Shown here: in pieces, positions 60,301 to 64,000 of the stretch
Layout of the letters: every line of letters begins with the position of its first letter
Numbering within the stretch: position 1 is the first letter of the stretch
Source of the DNA: Diplocarpon mali
Taxonomy: Eukaryota > Ascomycota > Leotiomycetes > Helotiales > Drepanopezizaceae
Direction of reading: 5' to 3'
Assembly: GCA_024741835.1 (NCBI GenBank)
Contig: JAENRP010000169.1
Span: 31,166 to 95,165 of the forward strand
DNA: 64,000 nt
The notes under the pieces: generated by a model
The model's input: only the letters and a program-made list of their open reading frames with translations
Databases searched by the model: none
What the model was told of the DNA's origin: nothing
Translations under genes and position numbers: made by a program

Positions 60301-62128
60301 GACTCACATCTCCAGGGTCTTCTCCTTGGTCATGGTAGAGCGGTTGCTGGAGGAGAACTGTCAGGGGCGTTATAGGTCAAACAAGCCCATCCTTCTAATT
60401 TTGATTTCACGAGAGTAGTACAGGATACAAATATTTTTGTATCTTGGTGTTAGGCATTTTTCTCTGCATCGCCGAGTTGAAGTATGACTGAAAAAAATAT
60501 ATCCTTTCAGCAACACCTGATGTGCATGTAGCGTCTTGGCTCCTACGAGTGGTGCCATCATTCGTCCGGCCGTAACTCTCGCCGACCAAGCACTGAGTTT
60601 CATTGGTCGAGTACTCTGATTCTAACGATACGTTCGTGCTCCCCATTTACCAAGTTCCAGGGACATCAAATGTCAGAATGCCGAATAAGCGAGACAGAAA
60701 AGGGGCATAAGCGAGCTGTAGACACTGTTGACTGGCTGAATATGAAGACCCGCTGTATTCAAAAGCAAGCTGATCTTCCATTCAACTAGATACTGATTCC
60801 TTTTACCCCAAGACCTCAATACGTTCTCGAAACGGTAATAACCAACAAGATACCGAAGCTTGTCCATATATTCTTGTCGCAGTGGAAACAAATAGCAAGC
60901 GGAAACTTGATACACGCAAGAAAGGTCGCCTGTCAAATCATCAAGCCGTGTTTATTCACGTTGGCGTTCGCAGTTTTGCGTGGCCTGAGAACCAGGATGG
61001 TCAGAAGCGAAGACAGGAGGAAGTGATTCGTGCTTCGGCGATCGCAATCCACCTGATCCGATGCGGATGAGTAGTAGTACACACATAATGCAATGTGCAC
61101 CAACCCTGGAAGTTTGGAATTCAAACACCAAGCTCGTAAAGGTACGTACTTGCAGGAGAGAGATGGAAAAGCTCGTAGACCCCGACAACAGTCGAAACCC
61201 AGGGTGCTTGAGGCTGCCTCGTGAATTGGCAGGAAATCTGCCTGGAGATTCGTGCGTAGCTAGAAGGCGCCACTCACGATGGCACTGTTATCTTCCGCTA
61301 CGAGATGCCCCGTTGAGCTGGGAAGGCAGCTTTAGAGGCATCGCCCTGTCAGGACAACGGAGAAGTGATCAGTGCGAATAGTCTCGGCCCCTCAGGATTC
61401 GCATTATCATCGCAGAGGCGCGAACGCGTGAGCGACTGGATTCCTTATGCCTAATCTACGGTTTACCTTATCCGAATATCTCTGCCGCCGTCTACCTACT
61501 GAGCAGTTAAGATTACAGGGGTAGCAGCTAGTTCCTCGGCTATGATCGAAGAGATGTGACTTTCAAATTTTGATTGGAAGCAGCAGCCGAAACGATGGTG
61601 ACGGTAATACTCGAGTAAAATCGTAGGAAAAGAGGTAACAGGAGCGCTAGTAATAGTTTTCGGGTAAGTGATATTGGTTGATTAAATAGGCAAAATATTG
61701 GAATTATTGGCTGGAGACGCATCATTTCTTTGCATTTCGAAAGATTTCACTTAACTAAAGAATGTTGTACCGACATCTTACGCAACTGGATGATGTATGT
61801 TTTGCTCTTCGAGCCGACTAATAGTCTCGTCTCTCTCCCGCAAAAGACATGAAGCTTACGGCTCTATCCGAATAAAAGGATTATTTCCGTGTGATCAGGC
61901 GTAGAGAGAAACAGTGATTGGCACACGGAGTGCAACATGAAGAAATATGAACAAAAGTACATTCGACTAACTGTAATTTTGAAACGCCGCACATGTAGTA
62001 GAGCTCCTAAAGTTGATGAAAACGCACCACGAACCCAGGCTAAGTGTGCTTTTGCTGACCATGTTCGCGAGACCCAGGGTTCATCTTGGAAAACCAGACG
62101 CCGTTGCTCGCGCCTCCATTTCGCGTAT
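57396..62128. other. 4.7-kb gene-poor stretch
   Basis: No gene is supported. Open frames reach only about 118 codons. A hydrophobic 95-codon frame at 58885-59172 and a possible short two-exon start near 60330 (minus) were considered but have no recognisable family. It includes the ORP1-like 3' flank and, at the right end, the antizyme 3' flank. Confidence 0.5.
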
Positions 62129-63082
62129 TTACACCTCCATGCCCAAATATAGCCACTTATCACTAGTTACGTCGAAGTTACTCGTCCACATCTCCAAGGA
62201 AATCAATTCGAAACCAACCCAGCGAAGACATTTGAGAAATGCTTTACGGTCGAGTTCGGGAACGGATCGGTCGAAGCAGATAACAATCTGGGAGACAGCG
62301 AATACAGTCTCAGCGAGTTCAATCAGTGCCATGAGACTAATCTAGTCAGTACCGGACCAGCTTCTGAGAATTGAACTGACCCTTGTTTCAGATCCCTCCC
62401 AACGACCGCAGAATCAAAGAATGCAAACAAGGACTTCTTGTCACCATCTCCTCCTACAAAGCCGCGGAGGCTGCAACCCCCAGCGTAGTCCCAAATCTCG
62501 ACCCAAGCATCAATTCTTTGTTTGTAGTGTTGCCTCACAAAATAATCGGTATGCGTATCCACATCATTAGGAGGTAAATACGTGTTCGCATCCATCACGA
62601 TAGAGCCATTATTCGCCGTCAGTCCTCCTTCACCGAAGAAGACGTCTTTCATGGTCTCACAGAAGAGCCTCTCACACTCTTCCCGGATGTAATGCGCTGC
62701 CCCCTCTTTACGGTTTCGCCTCGTGCTATTCGTGTCGCGCTTACGGTTAGGATTGGTCTTCGAGATGAGCGCGAACTCGTTAGCGGAGGTTACTGCCGCA
62801 AGAGGGGGGCTTGACGGGGGGGATGGAAGGCCTTCAAGGCCGACCTCAGGGATACCACTTTGCCCCTACAGAGATGTCAGTATTCTGCCAGCTTCCTAGG
62901 AGGGTTAAAAGTTATGAGAATGACGGAAACTCACCAGCGTCGCCGGTAGTGAAGTAATGGAAACCGCTTAGGCGGGCAAAAGAGTCTACGCAGTATGCGG
63001 AGGCGAGAATGCTGGCCTGTCGGCCAACAAACTCGCCATGGCGATTACTCGTGCTATGGCTTTCATTCTTACTGGGAGACAT
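62129..63082 (-). CDS. OAZ: Ornithine decarboxylase antizyme (+1 frameshift)
   Basis: Polyamine-homeostasis protein that binds ornithine decarboxylase and targets it to the proteasome. Exons on the minus strand are 62935-63082, 62381-62865 and 62129-62336. Exon 1 encodes 49 aa (starting MSPSKNESHS, ending FHYFTTGDA); exon 2 adds GAKWYP and then reads UGA at 62846-62848. The conserved protein resumes only in the +1 frame: EVGLEGLPSPPSSPP, HYIREECERLFCETMKDVFFGEG, WVEIWDYAGGCSLRGFVGG, KKSLFAFFDSAVVGRDLKQ, then in exon 3 GLMALIELAETVFAVSQIVI and CFDRSVPELDRKAFLKCL, ending SDKWLYLGMEV. Skipping one base gives exactly 280 codons (279 aa). An in-frame TAA 12 nt upstream of the ATG supports the start. 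In known antizymes polyamines raise frameshifting, closing a feedback loop; the same control here is inference. Without the shift only a 55-aa peptide is made. Confidence 0.92.
62846..62851 (-). promoter_or_regulatory. OAZ: Antizyme +1 recoding site CCC-UGA
   Basis: Minus-strand codons CCC (62849-62851) and UGA (62846-62848) end the zero frame of antizyme; moving one base forward reads GAG GUC GGC, the start of the conserved body. A GC-rich GGCC-UUGAA-GGCC inverted repeat begins 4 nt after the UGA (62829-62841) and could form a small hairpin. Whether it stimulates shifting is unknown. The codon before UGA is CCC here, where other antizymes often use UCC. Confidence 0.88.
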
Positions 63083-64000
63083 TGTTATCGATTATTACCA
63101 CGATTGCGATATAGAGTTTCGGCGGAGTCTCTGTCCTGCGAGGCTACGAGATTGTCGAGATCGTCGAGGGTATGCTGGCTACGGAAGCAGGTGAGGCTGC
63201 TGATGGAGACTTTTGGAGTACAGGACTTGATGATTTGTTGTGTCAAGAGGTGGATGGGAGGGTGGGGGCGATCTCTTTCATGAACATATCCCCGCTCGCC
63301 AGACCACGCGGCACTAGTCTCCTTCCAATTAGCCATCAGCACGTATTCACGCTTGCAAAAAGCGAATACGAGAGGCTGTGGCTCGCTGGTTATTCCCTTT
63401 GACATGGGCTCACTCCATATATGTGGTACTTGTGGTAATTATCCCATATACATAGTCTGTGCGCAGCTCTAAAGGTTTCTATTGACAGGGGCTTTGACAA
63501 TAGGATACTACCAATGATATAACTGTAGGAATAAGTGGCATGGAGGTGGTCAGGTGACTAGGGAATCGATTGGCACGTGACTTAGCGCGCAGGCTAGCGC
63601 GTAGGGATATACCTCGAGTCTCGCTCTCTTTCTGTATTCTAGATCATCGACAAAATACAATACAAGAATCAGAAGAATCAATTCAGTGCGCACACTTGTG
63701 AAACCAACACTGATCAGTGGTTGAATACACAACCACAGATAGTTAGGTGATCAAAAGAGATGAATTAGCAGAAAGCTCTTGTTGCGATCTGCTAGTACAT
63801 GCTAACGAGTTCCTTCAATTTTTTTCTCTCTTGTTGAGAAGCTTCGAAGAGTATTCGAGAGATTACTGAGATTTTCCTCTCTTGTTAAGGAGAATTAAAG
63901 TGATTTGCGTCATTTCACGCTGCTGTTAGCGCGTCTTTCCCTTTGGGTTAGAGAGACCAGACGGTATATTACTACAAATACATCTCCCCCTGCTACTAAC
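63083..64000. other. Antizyme upstream region and window edge
   Basis: It holds the antizyme promoter and leader. Near the edge (about 63815-63900) a motif of the type TCTCTCTTGTTGAGAA / CCTCTCTTGTTAAGGAGAA occurs twice, and the edge sequence could be the start of a repetitive element, but no terminal repeat or coding sequence can be read before the window ends. Confidence 0.45.

Follow-up and report, generated by a model that had tools for sequence, protein, structure and literature searches.

Gene structure and reading frames

The window analyzed here is a 64,000-nucleotide stretch of Diplocarpon mali DNA. Its reverse strand contains a three-exon gene for a predicted ornithine decarboxylase (ODC) antizyme. 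Exon 1 (148 nt, 62935..63082) provides an AUG with an A at position -3 (ACAATG) and most of the first reading frame, ORF1. Exon 2 (485 nt, 62381..62865) encodes the final ORF1 codons (AKWYP), the shift site, and the initial part of ORF2, whereas exon 3 (208 nt, 62129..62336) completes the ODC_AZ domain with its C-terminal half and ends in the stop codon TAA (62131-62129). Intron 1 (69 nt, 62866..62934) has the form GTGAGT...TGTAG and intron 2 (44 nt, 62337..62380) the form GTCAGT...TTAG; each contains a CTGAC motif, at distances of 15 nt and 13 nt, respectively, from the 3' end of the intron.

The spliced exons add up to 841 nt. Frame 0 comprises 55 codons (MSPSKN...GDAGAKWYP), and codon 56 is TGA (62848-62846), preceded by TGG TAT CCC. 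The shift site CCC_UGA thus occupies positions 62846..62851 of the reverse strand, with UGG UAU directly 5' of it. Dropping one base at CCC-UGA leaves 840 nt, a 279-aa open frame plus stop. The GT-AG introns, the exon sum, and the length of the joined frame had all been given in the original prediction, and every number was reproduced. The +1 frame is closed by a TAA inside exon 1 (62968..62970, reverse strand), which limits the overlap of the ORF1 and ORF2 frames to the final ~50 nt of ORF1. Because there is also no AUG in the +1 frame between this TAA (62970-62968) and the shift site, any shift must fall within these ~50 nt, where CCC-UGA is the last codon plus stop.

The exon 1 protein is kept as frame 0 among the aligned homologs (MSPSKN...LASAYCVDS...GFHYFTTGDAG), and the intron 1 junction is also implied by two Drepanopeziza brunnea models, P0005 and P0008. 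At the intron 2 junction, RDLKQG-LMALIELAE or a close variant is unbroken in most of the 24 aligned homologs; additional residues stand at this point in P0003 and P0012, and the segment is missing from P0072.

An upstream ORF of ~106 codons (63085..63402, reverse strand) ends with a stop 2 nt ahead of the antizyme AUG. A protein search with this ORF yields nothing at E <= 1, and Pfam gives no match; the ORF is possibly part of the antizyme 5' leader.

Domain assignment and homologs

The 279-aa product matches the ODC_AZ domain (Pfam ID PF02100) with an E value of 2.8e-42 and 143.6 bits (cutoff, 24.2), residues 167 to 279 covering positions 1 to 114 of the 114-position profile. On the reverse strand, the domain (62129..62514) spans exons 2 and 3. 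In the 49.4-Mb, 676-contig assembly, ODC_AZ gives two matches, both of them exons of the locus described here. The same assembly has one ODC-type locus (PF02784, contig C180), assigned from its domain only. A protein search with a cutoff of E <= 0.001 reported 400 homologs; those that rank highest among the named ones come from Leotiomycetes, and many carry the name antizyme. A search against structure chains finds the solved antizymes 1zo0, 4zgz, 4zgy, and 5bwa as weak matches (E values of 0.08 to 0.27). Of the 47 chains listed, the majority belong to WDR5 or related WD-repeat proteins and were presumably matched by chance.

All homolog comparisons below use the best 120 of the 400 reported proteins (P0001 to P0120), and the alignment took in 24 of these 120. 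This alignment with fungal antizymes, suggested as a check in the original prediction, shows both the ORF1 and the ORF2 motifs conserved among the 24 proteins. Homology had been claimed in two frames flanking the UGA, and it is found there: ORF1 in frame 0 and ORF2, with the full ODC_AZ domain, in the +1 frame, with the same offset in related fungi.

Conservation of the frame offset

None of the 120 listed homologs (of 400 reported) contains a plain fusion of ORF1 to ORF2 (W-x-x-E-V/A). The ORF1 motif is present in 86 of the 120, which reach ORF2 via varied bridges or with segments omitted; it is absent from the other 34, among which a start farther downstream or in the +1 frame is common. The ways of bridging found among these models include longer introns, micro-introns, retained intron pieces, and internal Met starts. 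Just after the UGA, the +1 frame encodes a segment, PEV...GLPSPPSSPPLAA, whose conservation extends from Helotiales to Xylariales and Hypocreales.

Two annotated proteins from two forms of D. brunnea provide a direct comparison of the frames: exon 1 is translated in frame 0 in P0005 and in the +1 frame in P0008. Both can be encoded by one DNA with zero conflicts over 36 + 36 residues, a result obtained with none of 2,000 shuffled versions. The same two-frame test was applied to 13 of the 34 motif-less models, namely, those with at least 10 residues before a match to xSGxPE. Of these, 11 fit as an out-of-frame ORF1, with 0 to 3 conflicts against the ORF1 of some relative: ten models show 0 to 2 conflicts in 40 to 50 residues, and P0052 shows 3 in 24. 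Shuffles against the same partner averaged 8 to 17 conflicts, a control that is somewhat generous, as the partner had been chosen as the best among 62 frame-0 peptides (in most cases from another species) and the 20 shuffles were scored on that partner only, with no new optimization; the D. brunnea pair is free of that choice. The fitting models include those from Drepanopeziza, Monilinia, Rutstroemia, and Xylariales. The fit failed for P0031 (14 conflicts in 50 residues), whose upstream sequence looks unrelated, and for P0117 (15 in 46), which begins at the frame-0 start of ORF1 and skips the rest of it. A two-frame fit can arise whether the splice junction is shared or an intron is absent at that place. 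Judged from these protein sequences, the frame offset is old and conserved.

Alternatives to frameshifting

The original prediction held that the frame mismatch proves the frameshift, which was too strong a claim. A scan of the 5' part of the gene for GT/GC-AG pairs (introns of 35 to 200 nt) finds 33 pairs that put the AUG and ORF2 in one open frame without slippage, so that frame arithmetic alone is no proof; the two-frame comparison is the stronger evidence. Two of the 33 pairs use the strong GTGAGT donor itself, with acceptors at 62832 and 62793. The second of these appears in the public model P0001 (hypothetical protein PZA11_003696 of Diplocarpon coronariae), all 255 residues of which agree with the predicted product; it is without the 24 residues around the shift site, owing to a longer intron from GTGAGT to 62793. 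This agreement assigns the locus to D. coronariae, an apple-blotch-type fungus, or to a very near relative. Automatic models had been expected to fail at this gene, and they do so in several ways: P0001 splices the shift site away, and the models of relatives resort to other introns or begin in the +1 frame at an internal Met. Alternative splicing could thus join the frames, from the GTGAGT at 62934 to acceptor 62793 or 62832, with CCC-UGA removed. The splice to 62793 is in frame and is annotated in P0001, a protein identical elsewhere; P0029 is modeled similarly, and other relatives have models with different bridging introns. However, the nearest branch-like motif lies 88 nt from acceptor 62793 and 49 nt from acceptor 62832, compared to 15 nt for intron 1. 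Moreover, PEV..PSPPSSPPLAA in the +1 frame, a segment with conservation across orders that 46 of the 120 listed homologs retain alongside the ORF1 motif, would be lost entirely (62793) or at its start (62832). The bridging device also varies from model to model, as expected when gene finders must repair a frame. A splicing explanation is, on this evidence, unlikely.

Two other explanations are still less probable. A single-base indel at CCC could create the mismatch, and P0001 gives no check on this base, as it skips the segment. Yet the same offset is independently implied in the models from Drepanopeziza, Monilinia, Rutstroemia, and Xylariales, and the UGA sits where the stop codons of antizyme ORF1s are expected. 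An old and conserved offset excludes a local error in the sequence, and the chance that a sequencing or assembly error near 62848 underlies the mismatch appears negligible. Alternatively, translation of a functional antizyme might begin at an AUG within ORF2 (the first corresponds to residue 121 of the joined 279-aa product), with ORF1 serving as a leader only. The metagenomic gene calls P0098 and P0113 start at this AUG, and the ODC_AZ domain (residues 167 to 279) would stay complete. Nevertheless, both ORF1 and the part of ORF2 from the shift site to residue 121 are conserved as protein, which internal initiation would not require, making it a highly improbable source of the antizyme.

The conserved frame offset, the lack of a plain fusion, and the branch motif of intron 1 all point to an antizyme gene of the classical +1 frameshift type, whose target is presumably ODC, and this reading of the sequence is very likely correct. 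The product is an ornithine decarboxylase antizyme, as originally predicted, and a +1 shift at CCC-UGA remains the best explanation.

Shift site and proposed mechanism

Among the homologs, the residue before PE[V/A] can be read in 66 matches: 54 have I, 6 have F, 3 have M, and V, A, and G occur once each, the G probably being a chance match in P0031. Because I, F, and M call for different third bases in the genetic code, the P-site codon before the UGA probably varies (NCC) among these fungi. A stimulatory RNA structure 3' of the shift site occurs in some antizyme lineages but not in all. Folding of the 93 nt of RNA from the UGA onward gives a z score of -0.44, which is unremarkable, and an Rfam search of positions 62100-63500 finds no match up to an E value of 5.

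In the proposed mechanism, most ribosomes would terminate at the UGA when polyamines are low. When polyamines are high, a ribosome with peptidyl-tRNA-Pro on CCC would advance by one base and make the 279-aa antizyme. tRNA-Pro(AGG) pairs with both CCC and CCU, so that the same tRNA-Pro could re-pair with CCU after the +1 move. The antizyme would then bind ODC and direct it to the proteasome, which would complete a negative feedback loop. For this particular antizyme, we infer both the polyamine response and the binding of ODC.

Inserts in nuclear tRNA genes

Inserts of the GT-AG type, with motifs resembling branch sites, interrupt six nuclear tRNA genes of this genome: four genes for tRNA-Pro and two that resemble elongator tRNA-Met genes. 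The tRNA-Pro genes found have the anticodons AGG (three genes) and TGG (one gene), with no GGG anticodon in a pattern search that was restricted to this sequence family. They are located at about bases 1475-1620 (L003 on contig C34, L004 on C84, L005 on C190, and L006 on C210). All four contain an intron near the anticodon and a second insert of 53 to 56 nt in the T-loop (59/60 by count). These T-loop inserts start with GTA(A/C)G, end with (C/T)AG, and have CTGAC, CTAAC, or CTGAT 15 to 17 nt from the end. Joining of the exons produces an identical 72-nt tRNA, apart from one anticodon base, and runs of at least 4 T residues are found within 60 nt after all four genes. A search with the joined sequence finds no uninterrupted tRNA-Pro copy, all four matches ending at position 58, and neither the intron-free tRNA-Pro pattern nor that of an uninterrupted 3' half has a match. 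ARAGORN and Rfam do not recognize the four loci, presumably because of the second insert.

Of the two elongator-tRNA-Met-like genes, L092 (C234:14179-14330) has a 49-nt GTAAG...TAG insert in the variable loop, with CTGAC at -16, and L097 (C27, near 112119-112208) has a GTAAG...TAG insert of ~50 nt in the T-loop, as read by eye. A further locus, L093 (C202:68405-68506), labeled Pyl by ARAGORN, combines an intact T-loop with a long intron close to the anticodon and is probably a tRNA-Pro(CGG) gene without the T-loop insert. The signals of the tRNA inserts match those of the antizyme introns of the same genome. These inserts are likely to be introns that are removed; that the spliceosome removes them is a somewhat favored but less secure proposition.

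This tRNA set is incomplete, as the RF00005 search scored 63 of 2,443 candidates and listed 45. A broader T-arm pattern gave 56 matches, compared to 25 in a reversed control. Among the 29 matches that were inspected, a single repeat family accounts for 13 and tRNA-Pro genes for 2; given this family and the control counts, the pattern was rejected as evidence for further tRNA inserts. Another candidate, L009/L031 on contig C72, matched a tRNA-Pro pattern but is no tRNA. The 13 copies of the dispersed repeat family (L015, L019, L020, L022, L026, L027, L030, L032, L033, L036, L037, L039, and L042) share GTAACT...GGTTCRAGGTACGTT and show, by eye, many C/T or G/A differences, as in repeat-induced mutation.

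For non-canonical tRNA introns of eukaryotes, a 2014 review names nucleomorphs and a red alga (PMC4090602), and the tRNAscan-SE 2.0 paper describes eukaryotic tRNA genes as limited to one intron (PMC8450103). Two tRNA-Pro genes of Aspergillus niger are described as having a 19-nt intron and a length of 91 nt in all (PMC6108506). Judging by titles or the starts of abstracts, the literature search returned no paper on spliceosomal introns in nuclear tRNA genes, and the tRNA insert observation may be worth more than the antizyme finding.

A T-loop intron of spliceosomal appearance in every AGG or TGG tRNA-Pro gene found suggests a further, quite speculative reading of the shift site. If tRNA-Pro(AGG) re-pairs from CCC to CCU, the efficiency of the shift could conceivably report the supply of matured tRNA-Pro in addition to polyamines, although we consider this very unlikely.

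Comparison with known antizymes

Antizyme frameshifting has long been described, in fungal antizymes as well, and the gene analyzed here would add one more CCC_UGA case to the family. Public models in several Leotiomycetes and Sordariomycetes appear to be built around an unrecognized frameshift, and their annotated antizyme proteins are probably wrong near the junction. The frame-offset test, which uses annotated proteins alone, offers a cheap way of finding such genes without the DNA of the relatives.

Vertebrate antizyme 1 uses UCC_UGA with a 3' pseudoknot (PMC4505036). The D. mali gene shares with it the ODC_AZ domain, a UGG codon just upstream, and the predicted +1 shift at the last codon of ORF1 before the UGA, but has no recognizable pseudoknot or Rfam element, and a Pro codon replaces the Ser codon in the P site.

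Antizymes of filamentous ascomycetes, including those of Botryotinia and Emericella, are already in print (PMC3432380, PMC4505036). Compared with such antizymes (e.g., PMC3432380), the D. mali gene has the same domain, ORF1 and ORF2 motifs that recur among its homologs, and, where testable, the same offset. It differs in its shift codon, CCC, as UCC_UGA accounts for the majority of antizymes, and CCC_UGA for a tiny minority, according to a 2016 review (PMC5009743). That review relays a survey of close to 300 antizymes with two CCC_UGA cases and states that CCC_UGA shifts less than UCC_UGA in one mammalian cassette (PMC5009743). Titles and abstracts in the open full-text literature on antizyme with CCC_UGA or Pezizomycotina suggest no further CCC_UGA case.

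The Agaricomycete antizyme is likewise fungal and uses a +1 frameshift. However, it shifts at UUU_U with a conserved 3' RNA structure and stimulation by the nascent peptide (PMC4505036), whereas no 3' structure was detected here. Saccharomyces cerevisiae OAZ1 resembles the D. mali gene in its +1 frameshift at an NNN_UGA site, which in yeast is GCG_UGA_C (PMC5009743, PMC4505036). It differs from the D. mali gene in the shift codon and, by the account in these sources, in its inverse logic, in which recoding signals damp a highly shift-prone site.
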